From: a virus
Direction: 5' to 3' (one strand)
DNA length: 64,000 nucleotides
Virus record (IMG/VR): IMGVR_UViG_3300022602_004807
Coordinates: 1 to 64,000 of that record
Positions 28,130-46,416 of the stretch are shown piece by piece. A model generated the notes under the pieces. That model made no database searches and was not told the DNA's origin. It saw nothing but the letters and a program-made list of their open reading frames with translations. Every line of letters begins with the position of its first letter. The stretch's first letter is position 1. A program made the translations under genes and the position numbers.

Positions 28130-29667
28130 GCGCGACCTTCCCCACTGCCTGTCGGCTCAAGCCCTTCCTCCTCTTCTTCAAGAAGATCAGGCATGTCATC
28201 GGGATCCAGCCCATCATAGGGAGACTCTGGATCATTGGCCAGCCGGGTGCGGACCTCCTCCGGAGAGATGGCCCCCATGTCGACATAGGCTTGATCTGTG
28301 CGCCCGCGCGCTTCGATGATCTCGGACAACTGCTTGGCGTCCAATTCCCAGAGAGGCTTGAACTTCCAAGATATTTCGTGGTCGATCTCGTTGAACAGCG
28401 AAAGCTGAACAAAGTCGATGATCGTCTGCAGGATCGGCCGCAATTGCGAATGCTGGTCAGCCGAGATCCGGTCGTAATACATTCGAATGGCGCCCTCAGA
28501 CGAGGCATTAAGCCCCGCTGGCTGGTCGCCCACGAACTTCACCAGCGGGATGCCAAAGGCCGTCGCCACATGCTCCAGCGCCTGCTGCTGGAGGGTATCC
28601 AGCGTCCCCAGAGGGGCCGAGACATTCTTGAAATCCTCACGGTCCTTGTCCAGAACCATCAGGCCGCGATTGTCACGCCAGTTCAGGAATAGATTGACGC
28701 GCTTTTCCAGCTCCTCCGCGCCGCCGGTCTGCACCTGCTCCGACATATCCGTCGACAGCACATAGGTCGTAAAGGCAGCGATGATGTCGCCCACACCGTC
28801 ACGGGATTTCAGCCAGATGTCGACTGCATCCTTTGCGAGCTGCGTCAACGGCAGGCCGCCGAAGTTATAGCTCGGCTTCAGCATGTCCGGGACAGGCCGT
28901 GAGATGAAGGGAATGAACCGGCTGCTGTGGATAGCCTGGCCCATCACGTACCACATGGTCGGGCTGTACCAGTCTTTTCGAAGCGGGTTGCTGGCGTTGT
29001 AGCTTTGCGCAGCAGTCCAGACCGGCTCGATGACTTTGACCCCAATCAGGGGGTGTTTCTTGCTGACCTTGCTCTTGCTCAGGCTATCACGCCCATTGCC
29101 GATTGAGGTCTCCAGCTCTTTTGGATCATCACCATTGCCGGTGTCGAGATAGAGATGCGCGCGGCCGAAAAAGCCGTCCGTCCGGATCAGGGAGAACAGG
29201 TGATCTTGAACCCGCATCTCCTGCAGCTTCTCTTCGATGGCTGCGATCTTTTCGCTTTTGGCTTCGTCACCCGTGGCTTCGAACTCGATCCATGCCCGGG
29301 TCATGTCGCCGGCAATGGTATCGACGCCACGGCGGTATTCAGACCGCTGAGCCATGTCGGACAAAAACGGATAGCCGAGGAACGTCAGCCCCTCAGAGGC
29401 CCGCATTCCTGCTATAGCCCATGCGAGATAGTTTGGCGCCGGACTCTCGTCCATGGCCATTTGATCGTCTTTTGCAGGACGAACGCCGGGCATGGGTTTG
29501 AAGGGCGTGAACACCCGAGCCGGGTCGATTTTGAAGCGGCGACCGCTGCGCTCAATGAGCTCGTCAAGTATGAGCGAGAAGGAGCGAGGCCGCTGCACGA
29601 CCGCAGGCTCAATCTGCTTTGCCGCGGCTGCTGCGCGCCGGGTCCGTGCGTTCAGTTTACCGGCCAA
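28126..29667 (-). CDS. Portal protein, DUF1073 family
   Basis: 513 aa. Motifs PNYLAWAIAGMRASEGLTFLGYPFLSDMAQRSEYRRGVDTIAGDMTRAWIEF and GIPLVKFVGDQPAGLNASSEGAIRMYYD are characteristic of DUF1073 portals. The protein forms the dodecameric DNA channel in one capsid vertex. It overlaps the large terminase gene by 11 bases and the MuF gene by four. The C-terminal 60 residues are acidic. Confidence 0.85.
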   Translation of the reverse strand: MAGKLNARTRRAAAAAKQIEPAVVQRPRSFSLILDELIERSGRRFKIDPARVFTPFKPMPGVRPAKDDQMAMDESPAPNYLAWAIAGMRASEGLTFLGYPFLSDMAQRSEYRRGVDTIAGDMTRAWIEFEATGDEAKSEKIAAIEEKLQEMRVQDHLFSLIRTDGFFGRAHLYLDTGNGDDPKELETSIGNGRDSLSKSKVSKKHPLIGVKVIEPVWTAAQSYNASNPLRKDWYSPTMWYVMGQAIHSSRFIPFISRPVPDMLKPSYNFGGLPLTQLAKDAVDIWLKSRDGVGDIIAAFTTYVLSTDMSEQVQTGGAEELEKRVNLFLNWRDNRGLMVLDKDREDFKNVSAPLGTLDTLQQQALEHVATAFGIPLVKFVGDQPAGLNASSEGAIRMYYDRISADQHSQLRPILQTIIDFVQLSLFNEIDHEISWKFKPLWELDAKQLSEIIEARGRTDQAYVDMGAISPEEVRTRLANDPESPYDGLDPDDMPDLLEEEEEGLEPTGSGEGRA

Positions 29668-31096
29668 AGCGACGGCCCCCTGTAGGTGATGGCATGGCTG
29701 ACTTCATGAGCAGATCGTCGCTGATCTTCATGGGAGCCCGCCGTTCGTTCAAGACATTGAAGGCCCGCGATAAAGCGTCGACCTGGTCGTCATAAGTGCC
29801 GAGCGGAAAGTTTCGCAGCTCATGTACGAAACTGTTGTTCCATTCGGCACGTTGCATAAAGACATGACCGACATTGACTTGCGCCGCCACAGGCTCTGCG
29901 CGCGTGACCTTGTCGCCGGTGTCTGGCGTAGCAGTGACCGAGTAGCCGGCCAATCTGCGGATCAAGTAATTGCTTTGCGATTTGCCGGCTTGACCGGGAT
30001 CTTGTGGGATCGAGATTTTGACCTTTTTCCCATCGCGCAATGCCGCTGATGTGATGGCTGCCTCAACGACTTCCGGTCGACCCTGCAAACGGATGATGTC
30101 CATGACCACGCATCGACTATCAGGCAGTTGCGCCAGCAATAGGCCGACCGTCCAGTCGCCATCGTTTTCGGTGGCAGCCAGATCCCATGCCCGCAGAAAC
30201 TTGGCTCCCTCCATGGGGCCGTCGTAAATGCCGATCATGTCAGGCTTGAACACTGCACCTTCAGCTGGCGTTGGCCGCTGCTGGTACTGTCCGGAGAACG
30301 TGTAGGGCGCTGCCATTTCCATGCGGCGCAGGTCTTCGACCGAATGCTTTTCTGGCCACAAAGAGGTGCCGTCAGGCTGCAGGGCGGGCAGACAGATATG
30401 ATCCCACTGCTCGCCATTGCCTCCAGCCAGGAGCCAGCCCGCCAGATCCTCCTCGTGCAGCCTCTGCATGATCAGGATGATCGGCGTGTCAGGCGAATTC
30501 TTTCTGCTTTCCAGCGTGTTCTGGAACCACTCGATGACGCCCTTGCGGATGCCCTCCGAGCGCGCTTCATCCGCCTTGTGCGGATCGTCGATGATGATGG
30601 CGCCAGCAAAGCCGGGACGCATCTTGCCCGCGCCGTAGCCGGTGATCGTGCCACCAGCGCCCACCGCATAGACGCAGCCACCTGCCAAAGTGCGCCACTC
30701 ATCTCGGCCGCCGACATCCGTGCGAAGTCTGGCCTCTGGGAAGATCTGCGCATATTCGGGCGTCATGGCCATTTCGCGGGTTTTCCACGAATTGGTCCCA
30801 GCCAAGCGGCCGGAGTAGCTGGTGTGAATGAACTCGGCGTCAGGCACCTTGCCGAGCGACCAGCTCATGAAGTTGATGACCGCGAGCTCCGTCTTGGAGA
30901 AGCGCGGTGGGATGTTGATGATCAGCCTCTTGCGGCGCCCGTGGAAGACATCCTCCAGCGCCCGGCAGATGATCGGGTGGTGTCCGGCCCTCAGCCACTT
31001 CCCGCCTGTGCGGGCTTGAAACATATAGCGGGAGTAGAAGTACAGATCCTCTCGGGCAAGGGCAGCAGTGACGAACCGCTCCTCGTCAGACTTCAT
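29657..31096 (-). CDS. terL: Terminase large subunit
   Basis: 479 aa. ATPase: Walker A-like PPRFSKTE (residues 63-70), Walker B AIIIDDPHK (166-174) and motif III region IILIMQRLHEEDLAGWL. Nuclease: Asp305 in AWDLAATE and Asp436/437/440 in TYDDQVDALSRAF. This is the packaging motor with its headful or site-specific nuclease. Start overlaps the small subunit gene by 11 bases. Confidence 0.9.
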   Translation of the reverse strand: MKSDEERFVTAALAREDLYFYSRYMFQARTGGKWLRAGHHPIICRALEDVFHGRRKRLIINIPPRFSKTELAVINFMSWSLGKVPDAEFIHTSYSGRLAGTNSWKTREMAMTPEYAQIFPEARLRTDVGGRDEWRTLAGGCVYAVGAGGTITGYGAGKMRPGFAGAIIIDDPHKADEARSEGIRKGVIEWFQNTLESRKNSPDTPIILIMQRLHEEDLAGWLLAGGNGEQWDHICLPALQPDGTSLWPEKHSVEDLRRMEMAAPYTFSGQYQQRPTPAEGAVFKPDMIGIYDGPMEGAKFLRAWDLAATENDGDWTVGLLLAQLPDSRCVVMDIIRLQGRPEVVEAAITSAALRDGKKVKISIPQDPGQAGKSQSNYLIRRLAGYSVTATPDTGDKVTRAEPVAAQVNVGHVFMQRAEWNNSFVHELRNFPLGTYDDQVDALSRAFNVLNERRAPMKISDDLLMKSAMPSPTGGRRFGR

Positions 31097-31571
31097 CGAC
31101 CACCTTTTTGGCGATCTCTGCGAAGCTCTCGATGGTGAGCCCCGGCGGCGCGATCAGCGTCGTCACGGTGCCGTTGAGGGTCGCGTTGATGTCTTGGGTC
31201 GGTTCCTTCCACCCGGCGCGGCACTTCAGCCAGAAGATCGCTGCGGTGACGGCGTTGGCGTGGTTGCCTGTCGCCTTGTTGTAGAGGCTACGGGCGACCA
31301 TGGCATTGGCCTGCACGTCAGCGGTCTCCAGTATGTCTCGGTAGTGCTTGTAGAGCGTGGGGACAGAGATCCCGATGACCTTGGCAATCAGCTCGCGGCG
31401 AATGCCGCCGATGACCATGGTCTTGACCTGGGCCTTGCTGTCATCTGTCGGCTTGTGCATCGGACGGCCTTCAGGGTTCTTTGGCTTTGAATGGTCAGGC
31501 CGACGGCGAATCTTGGGTCTATTGGGATTATCGAGGTAATCCTCTGGCCCGAGTTGCTTACGATTGGCCAT
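31086..31571 (-). CDS. Terminase small subunit-like protein
   Basis: 161 aa. Basic N-terminal 60 residues, then a helix-turn-helix (RRELIAKVIGISVPTLYKHYRDIL) and helices with AIFWLKCRAGWKEP, typical of small terminases. It is directly upstream of terL on the same strand, so it is likely the DNA-recognition subunit. First gene of the late minus-strand series. Confidence 0.75.
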   Translation of the reverse strand: MANRKQLGPEDYLDNPNRPKIRRRPDHSKPKNPEGRPMHKPTDDSKAQVKTMVIGGIRRELIAKVIGISVPTLYKHYRDILETADVQANAMVARSLYNKATGNHANAVTAAIFWLKCRAGWKEPTQDINATLNGTVTTLIAPPGLTIESFAEIAKKVVDEV

Positions 31572-31628: not shown

Positions 31629-32099
31629 ATGAAGGATTACAATGGTTTTTCTGCCGATCAACGTAACCGCGCGCAGCGTTGGCTGAACGTCCAATGGGCA
31701 GCCGGGACACTTCCCCGGCCCACCAAATGCGTTGCCTGCGGTCAGGATGAAGGCATCATCGACGCCCATGCGGAGGACTATTCAGAGCCCTTCCGCGCAG
31801 GCGTCACCGATGGCTTCCACCTCTGCTTTGCGTGCCACATGATGGTCCATTGTCGGCATCGCAATCAGCTCAGGTGGTCTCAGTATCGCGCAACCGTGGA
31901 GGAAGGTTTCAAGACCCTCCCCTACCACAGCCGAAACTGGCCTCGCTTTCAGCGCGAGATCCTGACCGGCCCGTTGCGTCGGGAGCTGTTCACCTCGGTT
32001 GCGCGGGTTGAACGGCTTGCCCTGTATGAGATCGAACTATCTCAGGACGAGGTAGCTCAGCGCCTTGGAGCGCGTCACCTCGCGGTAGCGGGGCGATAG
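31629..32099 (+). CDS. HNH/zinc-finger-like small protein
   Basis: 156 aa from the ATG at 31629, with GGGAGATG upstream. Residues 32-75 have CxxC (CVACGQDEG), then HAEDY, then CFACHMMVH, the spacing of a zinc-bound beta-beta-alpha fold similar to HNH nucleases, although the canonical HH pair is altered. The C-terminus converges on the methyltransferase gene and overlaps its last 63 bases on the other strand. Nuclease activity is uncertain. Confidence 0.6.
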   Translation: MKDYNGFSADQRNRAQRWLNVQWAAGTLPRPTKCVACGQDEGIIDAHAEDYSEPFRAGVTDGFHLCFACHMMVHCRHRNQLRWSQYRATVEEGFKTLPYHSRNWPRFQREILTGPLRRELFTSVARVERLALYEIELSQDEVAQRLGARHLAVAGR

Positions 32100-32606
32100 C
32101 AGGGTGACCTCATCATCAATGCTTCGGAGGGGGTTGGTTGCCCTCTCCGAAGCCACCCGGCCTTCGAGAAAGATCTCTCTCAGGCCGGATGCTGCAAGCA
32201 GTTCCACAAAGGCCCTTCCGCCCTCCAGATCGTAGCCCCACAGTTCGGGCAGCACCCGGCGGGCGATCATGGTCTTGGGCCGCGAGACCGTCAGGATCTT
32301 CTCAAGATCAGGCAGTGTGTCCTTGTTGACCGACAGGACATGGAAGCGCATGGGGACGCCCGCCTCGACAGCGGCCTCCACGACCTTGGCGTCAGCATCT
32401 ATCCCGGCGCAGGCAAGGCCACCTGCCTCCATCGCGATCCTTGCCCCCAGCAGGCCGTAGGAGCAGCCCAGATCGAGCAGGAAGCTGCCGCGCATGTTGG
32501 CCAGCGCGAAGTCGGTCATGGCGTTGTGGATGGCAGGCCACTGGCCCTGGAGCTGCCATGCCCGCAGGTACTCGGGCGAGTTGAAGCGGGTCGATTGGCG
32601 GGTCAC
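32037..32606 (-). CDS. Class I SAM-dependent methyltransferase
   Basis: 189 aa from GTG at 32606, which overlaps the previous stop as GTGA and follows an AGAGGT ribosome site. Motif I is LLDLGCSYGLLGARIA, followed by acidic GIDADAKVV. No NPPY or PPC motif is seen, so it is not a typical DNA N6 or C5 methylase; the substrate is open. It is the last gene of a five-gene coupled series with the ParB- and PAPS-reductase-family proteins. Confidence 0.7.
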   Translation of the reverse strand: MTRQSTRFNSPEYLRAWQLQGQWPAIHNAMTDFALANMRGSFLLDLGCSYGLLGARIAMEAGGLACAGIDADAKVVEAAVEAGVPMRFHVLSVNKDTLPDLEKILTVSRPKTMIARRVLPELWGYDLEGGRAFVELLAASGLREIFLEGRVASERATNPLRSIDDEVTLLSPRYREVTRSKALSYLVLR

Positions 32607-33118
32607 GCGGTCTTGACCTCTTTGGGGTACCAAGCCTTCGAATACTCCCAAGAGGCGATCTTCTTGGACTCGAAGACGTCGTCCTGGTAGAGCAGGTCGA
32701 CCTCGTCCTTGGTGGCGCCGATCTCTGCTGCAATCTCAGCCGGGTCGAAGTGGTGGGTGTCGATCAGCTCGTGAATGATCTTGGACATGCGCACGGCGAC
32801 ATGAGAGCCCTTGGCCCTGTTCATGCGGATGGTCAGGATCATGGCCTCCTCGCGGGAGACATCCAGCACTGCGCAGGGCACCTTGCCGCCCCACTTGGCC
32901 TGCAGCGCCTTGCTCTGGCGTGACAGGGTGGTGCGATGGAAGCCGTCGATGATGGTGCCGTCCTTGGTGATCAGCACCGGCTGCACCCATCCTGTCAGCA
33001 GGATGGAGCGCTCGAGGAGCGCCATTTCAGGGCCGAAGACGACGTTGGGATTGTAGTCATTGGCGTTCAGCTCCATCGCGTCGCGCCATTCGATGTTCTC
33101 AATTGGATCCGACTGCAT
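32603..33118 (-). CDS. IbrB-like ParB-domain protein
   Basis: 171 aa. A ParB/sulfiredoxin-fold N-terminal domain with LLTGWVQPVLI and DGFHRTTLSRQ (the GxHR-type motif), then helices. It directly follows the IbrA-like gene (TAATG overlap), the same pairing as ibrA-ibrB in Escherichia coli, whose products regulate other genes by a mechanism that is not settled. The pair may act together on DNA or nucleotides. Confidence 0.7.
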   Translation of the reverse strand: MQSDPIENIEWRDAMELNANDYNPNVVFGPEMALLERSILLTGWVQPVLITKDGTIIDGFHRTTLSRQSKALQAKWGGKVPCAVLDVSREEAMILTIRMNRAKGSHVAVRMSKIIHELIDTHHFDPAEIAAEIGATKDEVDLLYQDDVFESKKIASWEYSKAWYPKEVKTA

Positions 33119-34173
33119 TACTTCGCTCCGACCAGCGGCATGATGTTTCGCTTGAACCCGCCGCCCATGAAGACCCCGAGCAGATAGTCGGGCGGGTAGT
33201 TGCCAGCCTGGCGCTGCACCCGCTTCATGACGTCCTCAAAGCGACCGACTGCCAGCCGGTACTGCACGGGATCGGTGATGTTCTCCTCGATCCATGACCT
33301 CACGCCCTCGTAGGACTGGCCGTAGATCTTCTGGGTCCGTGTTTTGTCGAGATCGTGGTTGTAGCGCTCGTGGGCGAGCATCTCGGGAAAGATCTCGATG
33401 ATCCTCTGGTAGAACTCCGGCGTCTGATGCCGGACCATTCCGAACCTCTTGGCGCTCTCTGCGTGCAGGGGCGTCGAGACGCGCATGGCGTTGCCCGCAT
33501 AGAGCTGGATGTCATAGACCGGGCAATAGCTGATCTGCCGGTCGTAGAAGTACCGGAAGATGTCGTTCTCCTGCCAGTCGAACAGCGGCCAGCAGAGGTT
33601 CACGTTGGGCGCAGGCGAGCCAAGGATATAGTTCTCGTTCATCTTCGAGACCGCACCGCGGAATCGCATCAGGCTCTCAGCTGCCCGGACCCCAAGCAGG
33701 AAGGCCGTTTTGCCCCGGAAGAACTGGCCCGTGTAGGCGTCCATCGAATACTGGTCGAAGATCATCTTGGGATCTTCGGCGTTGCGGCCCCATGCGGGCT
33801 TGGGGCGCACCCAGCGATCGGGCCCGCGCTCGGGATCCCACTGGATGTAGGTGAAGGTGCGGCCCAGCACGTATTTGTTGCTCTTGAGCGGCACGGTGAA
33901 CCAGATCATCCGGATCCAGTCCTTTTGCCGGTACTCGTCGACGAAGTTCACCACCTCGTCAGGGATCAGCTCCTCGTCTCGGAAGACCACGTCGATGGGG
34001 GTGTCGACCCCACGCTCGAGCATGACCTCACGGGCCAGATGCAGGACGGCCAGCGAATCCTTGCCGCCCGAGAACATGACCGCGACGCTGTCGAAGATGT
34101 CGAAGATGTGGTGCAGCCGGGCCTTGGCCTCGGTCAGCACGTCGGTTTCGATGTGACCCTTAACGCGCGGCAA
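33118..34173 (-). CDS. IbrA-like PAPS reductase / PP-loop ATPase family protein
   Basis: 351 aa. The PP-loop SGGKDSLAVLHLA is at residues 35-47, followed by VVFRDEELI and RMIWFTVPL. GVRAAESLMRFRG supplies the second conserved block. The long C-terminal part (LYAGNAMRVSTPLHAESAKRFG, YPPDYLLGVFMGGG) matches the IbrA/DUF3440 type rather than metabolic CysH. Relatives such as DndC activate or transfer sulfur in DNA phosphorothioation. Whether this enzyme acts on DNA is unknown. Overlaps both neighbours. Confidence 0.8.
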   Translation of the reverse strand: MPRVKGHIETDVLTEAKARLHHIFDIFDSVAVMFSGGKDSLAVLHLAREVMLERGVDTPIDVVFRDEELIPDEVVNFVDEYRQKDWIRMIWFTVPLKSNKYVLGRTFTYIQWDPERGPDRWVRPKPAWGRNAEDPKMIFDQYSMDAYTGQFFRGKTAFLLGVRAAESLMRFRGAVSKMNENYILGSPAPNVNLCWPLFDWQENDIFRYFYDRQISYCPVYDIQLYAGNAMRVSTPLHAESAKRFGMVRHQTPEFYQRIIEIFPEMLAHERYNHDLDKTRTQKIYGQSYEGVRSWIEENITDPVQYRLAVGRFEDVMKRVQRQAGNYPPDYLLGVFMGGGFKRNIMPLVGAK

Positions 34174-34756
34174 TGTGGCCTCCCTCCGTCAGGAAGGCCA
34201 GCAGGCGCTCGCCCAGCGTTTCGATCTCCGGGTATTCGCCCTTGAGCCGGCGCATGAAGGTGAACCACGTCTTGCGCTGGTCCTCGTCCTCGAAGATCAG
34301 GTTGTACTGCAGGCTGGTGGCACCCTGCCCCTTGCGCTCCTGCACCTGGGGCTCAGGTTCCCTTCCCATCACGGCGTCCACGTCGGCAAAGCCGAGCAGG
34401 TTCAGGTCGAAGCCGGTCAGCTCCAGATCCTTGACCTCGATGCGCAGGACGTCGAAGTCCCAGCCCGCCTCGATGGCCAGCTGGTTATCGGCGATCAGAT
34501 AGGTCCGCTTCTGTGCCGGTGTGAGCCCTGAGAGCTCGATGACCGGCACCTCCTGCATCTTGAGGTGCTTGGCAGCGGCGAGGCGGCCATGGCCTGCGAT
34601 GATGCCATTGTCCCCGTCCACGAGGATGGGAGCAGTCCAGCCGAATTCCTTGATGGAGGCGGCGATCTGCTCGACCTGTTCCTTGGGGTGCTTGCGGGCG
34701 TTGCGGATGTAGGGGGTCAGGTCGGAGACCTTGCGATACTGGACGGCGAGCGTCAT
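34160..34756 (-). CDS. ParB-like nuclease/CTPase-fold protein, paralogue B
   Basis: 198 aa from ATG at 34756 (ATGA overlap with paralogue A); the frame runs further upstream only as antisense-like junk. The ParB domain has YIRNARKHPKEQVEQIAASIKEFGW and GIIAGHGRLAAAKHL. The C-terminal module (NLIFEDEDQRKTWFTFMRRLK) is shared with paralogue A. In other phages such proteins often sit beside or are fused to DNA methylases, which suggests a DNA-modification link. Confidence 0.75.
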   Translation of the reverse strand: MTLAVQYRKVSDLTPYIRNARKHPKEQVEQIAASIKEFGWTAPILVDGDNGIIAGHGRLAAAKHLKMQEVPVIELSGLTPAQKRTYLIADNQLAIEAGWDFDVLRIEVKDLELTGFDLNLLGFADVDAVMGREPEPQVQERKGQGATSLQYNLIFEDEDQRKTWFTFMRRLKGEYPEIETLGERLLAFLTEGGHIAAR

Positions 34757-35373
34757 GCGGCACCTCCCTGTTTGACCCGGGCGAGGAAGGCGCAGATGCG
34801 GGCCGCAATGGTTGGGTGGGTGGGAAACTCCTGCTGCAGGCGGCGGATGAACTCGAACCACGCTTGCTGCTGCTCGGTGTTGTCGAAGGTGATGTTGAAC
34901 TTGATGGCTGGCGTCTTCCACGTCTGGACCGGGTCTTTGGCCTCCAGCATGGACAGGTCGAGGTTGCCGAGCAGGCTGAGGTCGATTCCCTCGTCCTTGA
35001 GCTCGGGCACCTCGATGGCCAGCGCATCGAAGTCCCAAGAGGCGTTGAGCGCGATCTGGTTGTCGGCCACCACGTAGGCGCGCTTTTGGGCCTCGGTCAG
35101 CCCATGCAGCTCGATTACGGGCACCTTGTCCATGCCCAGGAGCTTGGCGGCTGCCATGCGCCCATGCCCGGCGACGATGCCATTCTGGCCGTCGATCAGG
35201 ATGGGGTTGGTCCAGCCGAAGGTCTCGATGGACTTGGCGATGGCCGCAACCTGCTCGGGTGAGTGCGTCCGTGAATTGCGGGTGTAGGGCACGAGCTCGC
35301 TAAGCTTGCGATACTCGACCTTGAGGCGCCCGATAGGCTCTGCAAGTGTACTCGGTGATGGTTTCTTTGCCAT
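34753..35373 (-). CDS. ParB-like nuclease/CTPase-fold protein, paralogue A
   Basis: 206 aa from ATG at 35373; an in-frame TTG 15 bases earlier is possible. Clear tandem duplicate of the next gene: both have YRK(V/L)S(D/E)L.PY.RN.R.H, GHGR(L/M)AAAK, a central D.Q.A motif with (A/N)DNQ(L/I)A, and the C-terminal NI.F...(Q)..WF.F.RRL. It heads the five-gene unit and is transcribed divergently from 35496, with an operator palindrome between them. Confidence 0.75.
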   Translation of the reverse strand: MAKKPSPSTLAEPIGRLKVEYRKLSELVPYTRNSRTHSPEQVAAIAKSIETFGWTNPILIDGQNGIVAGHGRMAAAKLLGMDKVPVIELHGLTEAQKRAYVVADNQIALNASWDFDALAIEVPELKDEGIDLSLLGNLDLSMLEAKDPVQTWKTPAIKFNITFDNTEQQQAWFEFIRRLQQEFPTHPTIAARICAFLARVKQGGAA

Positions 35374-35495: not shown

Positions 35496-35951
35496 ATGAC
35501 CAAGATCTCCCCCCGCCGCGCAAAGACCCTCGCCGCCCGCGCCAGCCGTCGTGAGCTGGACGCCGCTCGCTTCTCCTCCGTCGTGAAGGCGATCACCCAC
35601 AAGCCGGTGTTCGTCGAAGCCGAAGATGGCCAGCGCATCCGCGTGTGGAGCGACTGCACGACCGACGCCGCCGGCCGCAAGGTGATCTCGCTGGACGTGG
35701 TCCGCGACGAAGACGTGCGCGCCTGGCTGCTGGGCAACCGGGTGACCTCGATCCGCGAGGGCCTGGAGTTCGTCCACGAGAAGTACGCTCGCGGCATGAT
35801 CCGCGACGGCTTCCTGCGCCCTGACAGCTGCGATCCGCATCAGCTCTGGATCACCGACAAGGCCGCCGAGCGCTTCAACCTGCCCCCTGTGATGGGCTGC
35901 AAGTTTCCGCCCGCCACCGGCACTGTCGGCCGCTTGGCTCAGGCCGCTTGA
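35496..35951 (+). CDS. Hypothetical early protein
   Basis: 151 aa. Basic N-terminus (KISPRRAKTLAARASRRELDAARF), then a mixed alpha/beta domain with two Cys. First gene of the plus-strand series, with its own promoter and CTGCCACGGAG leader eight bases before the ATG. It is followed after 10 bases by the Spo0J/RepB-type parB gene. No family recognised. Confidence 0.65.
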   Translation: MTKISPRRAKTLAARASRRELDAARFSSVVKAITHKPVFVEAEDGQRIRVWSDCTTDAAGRKVISLDVVRDEDVRAWLLGNRVTSIREGLEFVHEKYARGMIRDGFLRPDSCDPHQLWITDKAAERFNLPPVMGCKFPPATGTVGRLAQAA

Positions 35952-35961
35952 GGAGGGCGAG

Positions 35962-36831
35962 ATGCAGATCGAACACTGCCGCGTCCGGCCCAATCCCGAC
36001 CAGCCCCGCAAGACCTTCGACCGCCGCGAGCTCGAGGACCTCGCGGCCTCCATCAAGGAGAACGGCCTGCTCCAGCCGATCACCGTGCGCCCCCTCCATG
36101 GGGGCTATGAGATCATCGCGGGCGAGCGCAGGTGGCGCGCCCATGGGCTCCTGATCGAGCAGGGCTATGAGCCCGCCAAGATCGTGACCTGCAACGTCGT
36201 CGAAATGGACGACATGACCCGCGACATCGCCGCGATCATCGAGAACCTGCAGCGCGTCGACGTCCTGCCGCTCGAGGAGGGCCGGGCGTTCCAGCGGATG
36301 CTGGACCTGGGGATGAGCGTCGAGGAGCTGGCCAAGAAGCTCGGCCGGCCCGTGTGGCGCGTGGAGGAGCGGGTCAGGCTGATGAACCTCGACCCCGGCA
36401 TCCAGAAGCTGTGCGAGGGTGGCTTTGACCACCATGTTGCCCAAGAGATCGCCCGCCTGCCCCGCCATGCCGATCAGGTGGCGCTGGTGCAGATGTGGAA
36501 CCGTGGGTCGATCGTCGGATTCAAGGCGCTCAAGGCGGCGGTGAACGCCAAGCTCGAAGCCCTGTCCCAGAGCGATATGTTCGGAGACGCCCCGCGCGTC
36601 AGCGATGCCGACGTCGAGGTTGTGAGGTCCATGGAAGCCAAGATCGAACGCATGGCCGCCCTCGCCGCTGCTGGCTGGAAAGACGGTGAGTGCCTGGTCG
36701 CCAGCAAGGTCAGCCGTGACCGCGCCGCCCTGATGGCCGACAAGATCAAGGCCATGCGCTCTGCCCTGTTCGCCATGGAAGGCGATCTCAGAGCCGCTGC
36801 CGCTCAGGCCGAAATCGTCCTCGCCGCCTGA
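35962..36831 (+). CDS. ParB/RepB/Spo0J family protein
   Basis: 289 aa. The classic ParB motifs are present: GERRWRA (residues 54-60) and ENLQR (94-98), followed by a helix-turn-helix (MSVEELAKKLGRPVWRVEERVRLMNL). This is a true Spo0J-type layout, unlike the three shorter ParB-like proteins on the other strand. No parA or obvious parS array is nearby, so it may act as a DNA-binding regulator and not in partition. GAGGGCGAG precedes the ATG. Confidence 0.8.
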   Translation: MQIEHCRVRPNPDQPRKTFDRRELEDLAASIKENGLLQPITVRPLHGGYEIIAGERRWRAHGLLIEQGYEPAKIVTCNVVEMDDMTRDIAAIIENLQRVDVLPLEEGRAFQRMLDLGMSVEELAKKLGRPVWRVEERVRLMNLDPGIQKLCEGGFDHHVAQEIARLPRHADQVALVQMWNRGSIVGFKALKAAVNAKLEALSQSDMFGDAPRVSDADVEVVRSMEAKIERMAALAAAGWKDGECLVASKVSRDRAALMADKIKAMRSALFAMEGDLRAAAAQAEIVLAA

Positions 36832-37314: not shown

Positions 37315-37581
37315 ATGATGCCAGTCGGCCAAATCTTCACCCATCGTATCCTGCGCCCTTGGGTCTCCGAGGGTGTCAGGGGCACCGAGATCGCCACCTA
37401 CCGCTGCCGGGTGACCCGGCGCAACCAGTGGCAGATCGAGTTCGAGAACCTTGAGCGCCTTTCGGTCGAGGATCCCCTGCCCGGCACCGATGGCGCCCTG
37501 TCCCCCGGCGGCGGCATGACCGTCGCCTGGGCGAAGAAGCTGATCGAACGTGGGCTGATCCTGCTTGAGGAGGGCCTGTGA
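37315..37581 (+). CDS. Small hypothetical protein
   Basis: 88 aa from ATG at 37315 with AGGGAGG upstream; a GTG in frame at 37300 overlaps the previous stop and is less likely. It contains a central strand-rich segment (EIATYRCRVTRRNQWQIEFENLERL). Ends in TGATG overlap with the methylase gene, which suggests coupling. No family recognised. Confidence 0.6.
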   Translation: MMPVGQIFTHRILRPWVSEGVRGTEIATYRCRVTRRNQWQIEFENLERLSVEDPLPGTDGALSPGGGMTVAWAKKLIERGLILLEEGL

Positions 37582-38309
37582 TGCTCGACCTGTTCTCCCC
37601 GCTCAAGACGGACGTGCGGCTGGCCAAGCGCCCGCTGCGCGTCTTAATTGGCTGCGAGTTCTCCGGCGTTGTTCGGAGAGCCTTCGATGCCCTGGGCCAT
37701 GATGCTTGGTCCTGCGACCTGCTCAAGGCCGAAGACGGCTCCAACAAGCATCTGGTGGGCGACGTCCGCCAATTCCTCGGGATGGGCTGGGACCTGCTGT
37801 TCCTCGCTCATCCGCCCTGCACCCGCCTCTGCCTGTCTGGCGTTCGGTGGCTGCATGTTCCGCCGCCGGGCAAGACGCTCGAGCAAATGTGGGCCGAGCT
37901 CGACGAGGCCGCAGCTCTGTTCTCGGACTGCTGGAACGCGGACCAGACCCACGGGATTCCGCGAGTGGCTGTCGAGAACCCGATCATGCACCGCCATGCG
38001 CGGGAGCGGATCAAGAACTACCCGACCAAGGACCAGATGCAGACCGTCCAGCCATGGTGGTTTGGGGAGGAGGCCTTCAAGGCGACAACCCTGCACCTCA
38101 AGGGCCTACCTCCCCTCGCTCCCACCCAGCGGCTCGAACCGCCCAAGCCCGGCTCTGCCGAGCATAAGGCGTGGTCTTGGATCCATCTTATGCCGCGCGG
38201 CCCCAATCGCTGGAAGCTGCGGAGCCGGACGTTTCAGGGCGTTGCCGAGGCCATGGCGATGCAGTGGGGCGGCTACGTCGAAGAACTCAACCTGTTTCGG
38301 AGAGGTTGA
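37581..38309 (+). CDS. C5-cytosine DNA methyltransferase-like protein
   Basis: 242 aa from ATG at 37581. The sequence begins with a SAM-site-like CEFSGVVRRAFDALGHDAWSCDLL. The PPC catalytic motif is present (FLAHPPCTRLCLSG), as is ENP (VAVENPIM). A C-terminal RTFQGVAEAMAMQWGGYV resembles the terminal motifs that close the fold. It lacks a long target-recognition domain, and motif I departs from FxGxG, so activity should be tested. It is convergent with a minus-strand gene two bases away. Confidence 0.7.
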   Translation: MLDLFSPLKTDVRLAKRPLRVLIGCEFSGVVRRAFDALGHDAWSCDLLKAEDGSNKHLVGDVRQFLGMGWDLLFLAHPPCTRLCLSGVRWLHVPPPGKTLEQMWAELDEAAALFSDCWNADQTHGIPRVAVENPIMHRHARERIKNYPTKDQMQTVQPWWFGEEAFKATTLHLKGLPPLAPTQRLEPPKPGSAEHKAWSWIHLMPRGPNRWKLRSRTFQGVAEAMAMQWGGYVEELNLFRRG

Positions 38310-45616: not shown

Positions 45617-45670
45617 GAGGGGCCCGTGTGGCCCCTCTATCGGTGCGCCTCTGCACCTTGCCACGAAGGA
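45617..45670 (+). promoter_or_regulatory. Hairpin plus TTGCCACGAAGGA leader box
   Basis: GAGGGGCC (45617-45624) / GGCCCCTC (45630-45637) forms an 8-base stem without a T-run. A leader box variant TTGCCACGAAGGA at 45658-45670 precedes ATG 45679. No full operator or clear promoter is seen in 45607-45678, so the downstream gene may be read through from 44440. Confidence 0.5.
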
Positions 45671-45678
45671 ACTCCACC

Positions 45679-46416
45679 ATGCAGATCGAACAGAACGTGC
45701 TCGCTATCCTGTCGCGAGCAGACATTGCCGGGAACCGCCTCGCCATCAGCGAGCGGCTCGACCGGAAGGACTATGAAGCCGTGAACAAGGTCCTCGTTGC
45801 CGCTGGCGGCAAGTGGAACCGGAGCGCCAAGGCGCATGTGTTCGACGGCGAGGTCGACGCAATCCTCGACCCCATCATGCTCACAGGCGAGATCACCACC
45901 GCGCAGGAGCTCGGATTCTTCGAGACCCCGATTGACGTGGCCCGCAAGGTCATCGCCATGGCCGACATCCAGCCAGGCGCTGAGGTGCTGGAGCCGAGCG
46001 CCGGGCGTGGGGCACTCGCGCAGCAGGCGTCTCAGGTTTCCCAGACCGCGATTGATTGCATCGAGATCGACGCCAAGCGCGCAGCCTACCTGTCAGCCTT
46101 TCCGTGGGTGGCCGACATAACCTGTGCCGACTTCCTGACCATCGAGCCCCGGCCTGAGTACGACCGGATCGTGATGAACCCGCCTTTTGCGAAGCAGCAG
46201 GACATTACCCACGTCCTTCATGCCCGCAGATTCCTGAAATCCGGCGGCCGGCTGGTGAGCGTGATGTCGGCCGGTGTGATGTTTCGCGGTGACCGCAAGA
46301 CTCGCGAATTCCGCGAGCTGGTCGCCGCCTGCGGTGGATCCATCGAAGCCCTGCCTGAAGGGTCGTTCAAGGCGTCCGGAACCGGCGTGAACACCGTCCT
46401 CGTCACCCTTTACTGA
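45679..46416 (+). CDS. DNA N6-adenine methyltransferase
   Basis: 245 aa from ATG at 45679. Residues 1-75 form a small N-terminal domain common to phage methylases of this type (LDRKDYEAVNKVLVAAGGKWNR). Motif I is VLEPSAGRGALAQ; motif IV is MNPPF. C-terminal GVMFRG and GSFKASGTGVNTVLV fit the fold. Probably modifies phage or host DNA; site unknown. Confidence 0.8.
   Translation: MQIEQNVLAILSRADIAGNRLAISERLDRKDYEAVNKVLVAAGGKWNRSAKAHVFDGEVDAILDPIMLTGEITTAQELGFFETPIDVARKVIAMADIQPGAEVLEPSAGRGALAQQASQVSQTAIDCIEIDAKRAAYLSAFPWVADITCADFLTIEPRPEYDRIVMNPPFAKQQDITHVLHARRFLKSGGRLVSVMSAGVMFRGDRKTREFRELVAACGGSIEALPEGSFKASGTGVNTVLVTLY

Follow-up and report, generated by a model that had tools for sequence, protein, structure and literature searches.

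A probable phage cassette for DNA hypermodification around IbrA/IbrB, with a proposed activation-plus-cap scheme

The window analyzed here is a stretch of 64,000 nucleotides that forms part of a 67,752-base virus record of IMG/VR (IMGVR_UViG_3300022602_004807), and a compact gene cassette is found in it directly beside the terminase genes (Table 1). Genes A to E of the cassette lie on the minus strand and are joined by an ATGA overlap between A and B, a 14-base overlap between B and C, TAATG between C and D, and GTGA between D and E. F is convergent with E, and the tails of the two genes overlap by 63 bases. A preliminary description of this DNA had listed five overlapping minus-strand genes encoding two ParB-like paralogues, a PP-loop protein of the PAPS-reductase family with SGGKDS, an IbrB-like ParB protein and a class I methyltransferase, with the terminase genes adjoining. 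The coordinates and all junctions were recovered as described, A and B were found to be 53% identical, and each assignment is borne out by profile matches, namely PAPS_reduct (E 1e-14) and phrog_2302 (E 4e-107) for C and those given in Table 1 for the others. F, a sixth member that was absent from the earlier list of five genes, belongs to the conserved set. A DNA megablast of the region against phages gave no match.

Table 1. Coordinates of the cassette genes and of the neighboring terminase genes in the window
Gene	Product	Positions	Strand	Details
A	ParB-like protein 1 (P family)	34753-35373	-	206 aa, ATG start; phrog_620 E 3e-50
B	ParB-like protein 2 (P family)	34160-34756	-	198 aa, ATG start; phrog_620 E ~1e-50
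C	IbrA-like PP-loop ATP-pyrophosphatase-fold protein	33118-34173	-	351 aa, TTG start; SGGKDS
D	IbrB-like ParB/Srx protein	32603-33118	-	171 aa, ATG start; phrog_2159 E 4e-69
E	small class I SAM methyltransferase, cassette-specific family	32037-32606	-	189 aa, GTG start; phrog_11826 E 8e-31
F	HNH-like protein, CxxC...HxEDY...CxxCHxxxH	31629-32099	+	~156 aa; phrog_2340 endonuclease E 5e-7
	terminase small subunit, downstream neighbor (context)	31086-31571	-	phrog_309 E 2e-14
	terminase large subunit, downstream neighbor (context)	29657-31096	-	phrog_38 E 9e-105

The core of the cassette is related to a chromosomal pair of Escherichia coli, with C being 28% identical to YbdN over 250 columns (BLASTP E 5e-21) and D 35% identical to YbdM over 170 columns (BLASTP E 9e-34). 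C keeps the PP-loop and the other motifs of the ATP pyrophosphatases of the PAPS-reductase group, and its profile matches in the PDB are CysD, FAD synthase and CysH. The DUF3440 region of YbdN has no match in C, in which the Pfam scan found PAPS_reduct only, and it is not required of the phage forms. Among the 95 sequences of the PP-loop family, no invariant cysteine, conserved CxxC or Fe-S set was found. The most conserved cysteine, C217, had been taken as invariant from 14 sequences, and this was rejected because Ala, Ser or Asn stands there in 9 of the 95, YbdN being among those nine; a sulfur relay borne by a cysteine is thus unlikely to be common to the family. An identity of C as assimilatory PAPS reductase (CysH) was likewise rejected, as it has no cysteine beyond position 217 and none is conserved C-terminally in the family. 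So was an identity as QueC, since C matches phrog_2302 and reaches QueC only at E 0.016, and no cassette gene is DpdA. Of the ParB proteins in the cassette, D is the best conserved. It carries the motifs DG[FY]HR, with D, G and R invariant, and NRAKGSH, in which N, A, K, G and the final H do not vary; GmrS, a ParB/Srx-like protein, has a related motif in its NTP pocket (PMC10952713).

The sole domain match of A, B and D is to ParB_N, with scores below the gathering threshold; as the ParB HTH domain is missing, all three were rejected as partition ParB proteins. A fuller ParB with both ParB_N and the ParB HTH domain is encoded at 35962-36831 (+), after a gene at 35496-35951 (+) and divergent from the cassette, and a few cassette loci (L006, L007, L046 and L049) have other ParB-like genes at distances of up to 7 kb. 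The predicted fold of E is confidently class I (pLDDT 94.9), and its model matches many class I methyltransferases in the PDB (best Z 16.6, rmsd 2.9 over 167 residues), resembling small-molecule, RNA and protein methyltransferases alike, with Bud23 among the near ones. Invariant or near-invariant residues of the E family are PxIH, DL.....GLL, ARR...E, GR and E, of which ARR...E and GR are the family's own. E was rejected as a canonical DNA N6A, N4C or 5mC methyltransferase, the family having no motif IV (DPPY/NPPY or PC). Two further DNA-methyltransferase-like genes are present at 37578-38309 (+; phrog_757) and 45628-46413 (+; phrog_15406/phrog_6263), so that the phage may methylate its DNA independently of the cassette. 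In the F family, C35, C38, H48, C67, C70, H71 and H75 are invariant; the closest solved fold to the F model is the HNH nickase 4h9d, a weak match (Z 5.6), and a Foldseek search with the model returned nothing significant (E >1).

The conservation of the cassette was assessed in about 90 viral loci that encode a relative of C and in annotated phages, with neighbors typed by profile searches, and loci extending at least 1.5 kb upstream and at least 2.5 kb downstream of C were counted as well flanked (n=66). The gene order of the window is found again in about 95 viral loci, a recurrence that is far beyond chance, and the genes form a block shared by many unrelated bacterial viruses. Anchored on C, all 66 well-flanked loci contain IbrB and 65 contain ParB, and the HNH-like protein (Y..R..CxxC..HxEDY..CxxCHxxxH) is present in 57. 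Anchored on IbrB, both ParB and the PP-loop gene occur in 39 of 39 well-flanked loci, and anchored on the methyltransferase, the PP-loop gene occurs in 46 of 48 loci; many contigs are common to the forward and reverse sets, and these figures are therefore a reverse check and not a fresh sample. Relatives of the methyltransferase in IMG/VR were retrieved with the family alignment, a single-sequence query having confirmed none. The co-occurrence of the genes in other phages, which the preliminary description had named as a check, was thus looked for and found, the ParB, PP-loop and IbrB triad standing together in 65-66 of the 66 loci.

Sequenced phages agree with this picture, as relatives of the PP-loop protein occur in 215 records and those of IbrB in 218, with matching counts in Flavobacterium (90/90), Mycobacterium (55/55), Streptococcus (21/21) and Arthrobacter (12/12). 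Arthrobacter phage Salgado carries ParB, PP-loop, IbrB, methyltransferase and terminase genes in the order of the window, with about 49% identity in C, and Bacillus phage 031MP002 is another isolate of the methyltransferase type. No description of the cassette was found in the papers searched; part of it may have been predicted by Iyer et al. in 2013. A Heimdallarchaeal virus, HeimV2, has been reported to encode homologues of IbrA and IbrB (PMC8813620), which extends the pair to archaeal viruses.

The gene in the position of E is exchangeable. A methyltransferase is found there in 26 of the 66 loci and a GNAT acyltransferase in 33, both together in none, and neither in seven well-flanked cassettes (L014, L042, L056, L064, L065, L081 and L089). 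The chance probability of zero overlap is 2.6e-12 with kinship ignored. These GNATs match generic acetyltransferase models only, with 22 of 25 sampled matching Pfam Acetyltransf_1. On the tree of the PP-loop protein the methyltransferase/GNAT label changes at least 15 times, 8 of the changes being forced by starred branches; the finishing enzymes have been swapped at least 8-15 times, and shared descent is therefore no explanation for their mutual exclusion. On the tree of the HNH-like protein, which has a short alignment and weak support, the label changes just 7 times, suggesting that the HNH-like gene tends to move together with the finishing enzyme. In L028 and L032, two contigs whose DNA shows 78% identity over the ParB, PP-loop and IbrB genes, the similarity breaks off after IbrB, where one has GNAT plus HNH genes and the other methyltransferase plus HNH genes, and then resumes. 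Beside the cassette of another contig (L080, 8325-8966, +) lies a gene that by eye resembles 2-oxoglutarate/iron dioxygenases and has relatives in four other loci; these neighbors are possibly an extra modification step.

A direct comparison with other pathways is offered by the mycobacteriophage subfamily Bclasvirinae and a related Gordonia phage, in which a variable block precedes a homologous terminase and ParB comes first in all genera seen except one (UncleHowie has no ParB in this slot, and a kinase only). The slot of Phlyer holds ParB, two small genes, PP-loop and IbrB genes; the HNH-like gene was not found at this locus, and a cassette of ParB, PP-loop and IbrB alone fits a core with an optional cap. 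In the Rosebushvirus Blocker23 the slot is filled by ParB, DpdA, QueC, QueD, QueE and FolE, and for Rosebush, which belongs to the same genus, dPreQ0 has been measured in the DNA at a level of about 28% of guanines (PMC6884629). Donny has ParB, a TET-like oxygenase, a TET-associated glycosyltransferase (TAGT, E 6.5e-38), a PIG-L deacetylase and a nucleotide kinase. An amino acid:DNA transferase is present, besides other genes, in LilMcDreamy (E 2.7e-12) and in the Gordonia phage LittleMunchkin (E 1.3e-27), the latter also with a TET-like gene; TET_JBP matches in the slot fall under the Pfam cut-off. Over about 130 residues, the Phlyer ParB has 49-58% identity with those of Blocker23, Heath, Donny and LilMcDreamy, and all five match the ParB profile of the window (P family). 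The shared ParB and slot indicate that one kind of ParB accompanies several chemically unrelated DNA-modification pathways, and that the IbrA/IbrB core takes the place of those pathways. Gene 2 of Mycobacterium phage Heath (L270, 785-1759) is annotated as a queuine tRNA-ribosyltransferase, and its sole Pfam match is a sub-cut-off one to Tet_JBP (E 5.5e-6); the annotation is possibly wrong.

That the cassette modifies DNA is well supported by context, through the linkage of the triad, the exchange of methyltransferase and GNAT, and the slot and orthologous ParB held in common with proven or named pathways. The preliminary description had proposed a system for DNA or nucleotide modification, perhaps involving sulfur; the modification part gains from the conservation of the cassette, its strict gene coupling and its slot, and the sulfur part is not supported. 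We put at roughly two in three the probability that this is a phage DNA-hypermodification cassette on an IbrA/IbrB core, operating by activation followed by capping. In such a scheme C would use ATP to adenylate a group in DNA, likeliest a base carbonyl, and a nucleophile, probably an amine rather than a sulfide, would replace the activated group. D, with its ParB/Srx fold and DGxHR, could be the obligate NTP-using or DNA-loading partner of C, A and B may bring the machinery to phage DNA, and E, or the GNAT in other phages, would cap the new group. F might act as a specificity partner, or else be an endonuclease suited to the completed mark. With this product, DNA awaiting packaging would be shielded from host nucleases. 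A fuller and more tentative proposal, against which we see the odds as leaning, is that IbrA/IbrB with ParB constitutes a new sulfur-free ATP route to an amine-type base handle that is methyl- or acyl-capped, with an HNH-like protein matched to each finisher and ybdN/ybdM as a stripped-down relative. Counting against modification of DNA are the lack of the DNA-methyltransferase motif IV in E, the likeness of its fold to small-molecule, RNA and protein methyltransferases alike, the sub-cut-off level of the TET_JBP matches in the slot, and the fact that unrelated cargo can share one gene position.

Among other explanations, a sulfur chemistry would have the PP-loop enzyme put a phosphorothioate or a thiolated base into DNA by way of a host cysteine desulfurase, with the methyltransferase or GNAT capping the thiol. 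Membership of C in the PAPS_reduct family is in keeping with this, as is the placing of DndC, SspD and BrxP in the same superfamily (PMC12839542), and both methyl and acyl groups are readily transferred to a thiol. However, a cysteine dyad is stressed for DndC (PMC10853773), and in the PP-loop family C217 is replaceable and no CxxC or Fe-S set is conserved. C matches DndC only marginally (E 0.01), and in the 67.8 kb record, which may be a fragment, the models of DndC and DndD found no match. Nor was a cysteine desulfurase found there, an enzyme that the host could supply, or a DndE, the search for which matched in no control either. We consider sulfur chemistry unlikely. A further explanation, that IbrA/IbrB and their partners regulate phage or host gene expression through DNA binding by the ParB domains, draws on the annotation of IbrA/IbrB as co-activators of prophage gene expression and on the cellular ybdNM of E. 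coli, for which no DNA modification is known and whose operon is controlled by a LysR-type repressor, as part of a regulon connected with citrate use (PMC9068703). Both points speak against DNA modification. Regulation nevertheless leaves unexplained the exchangeable methyltransferase and GNAT as well as the slot shared with preQ0 and TET-like pathways, and a regulatory effect could itself result from DNA modification; we hold it to be quite unlikely.

The similarity of the E fold to Bud23 and other RNA methyltransferases could also suggest that the cassette alters tRNA during infection, thereby aiding translation or evading tRNA-cutting defenses. TilS and TtcA, which are PP-loop relatives, have tRNA as their substrate, and tRNA pathways commonly include PP-loop proteins, GNATs and small methyltransferases. 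The ParB and HNH-like partners, the proximity to terminase and the slot shared with DNA-modification pathways point instead to DNA, making RNA modification very improbable. Least probable of all is that the HNH-like protein and the ParBs assist the terminase in packaging or DNA processing, with the enzymes as side cargo. Roles in packaging are known for HNH proteins encoded near terminase, and in 50 of 78 loci a terminase large subunit was detected no more than 4.5 kb downstream; yet the triad accompanies terminases of several unlinked sequence groups, it lies away from the terminase in Rhizobium phage RHph_I4, and the Phlyer locus yielded no HNH-like gene.

Under DNA hypermodification, the IbrA/IbrB pair, widely annotated yet unexplained (more than 210 sequenced phage records, in addition to ybdN/ybdM), would gain a specific and testable role. 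It would also point to a possibly unrecognized class of DNA modification in phages, one in which the finishing step can be exchanged, and it suggests that these small ParB proteins generally partner DNA-modification pathways whose chemistries are unrelated. In the literature, phage IbrA/IbrB have been treated as regulators or given no function, a link to DndC has been proposed for a PAPS-reductase gene of a Mycobacterium abscessus prophage (PMC8092301), and the role of phage PAPS-reductase genes has been left open (PMC11437467).

Several known systems share parts of this arrangement. Dnd, Ssp and type 4 BREX have the PP-loop PAPS-reductase superfamily in common with the cassette, and Dnd also has the ParB-superfamily protein DndB, whereas the cassette is without the conserved cysteine set and adds a methyltransferase or GNAT. 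The CmoX/CmoY carboxymethylcytosine pathway of phages first places a handle on DNA and extends it afterwards, and the contig often encodes a ParBc protein (PMC12783734); its enzymes differ, the cassette being without CmoA, a C5-methyltransferase or an AMP-forming ligase. The TET, TAGT and amino acid:DNA transferase cassettes of Donny, LilMcDreamy and LittleMunchkin have the same slot and ParB, with the dioxygenase and glycosyltransferase that the window cassette does without. The 7-deazaguanine cassette of Rosebushvirus likewise starts with ParB, includes a PP-loop enzyme and ends at the terminase, in the same Bclasvirinae slot as that of Phlyer, although the window cassette has no TGT/DpdA or Que enzymes and its PP-loop family differs. 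The ybdN/ybdM pair of E. coli, the chromosomal example of IbrA/IbrB, encodes homologues of C and D and has the two genes adjacent in the same order, while the phage cassette adds ParBs, an HNH-like protein and either a methyltransferase or a GNAT, and its C has no DUF3440 match.
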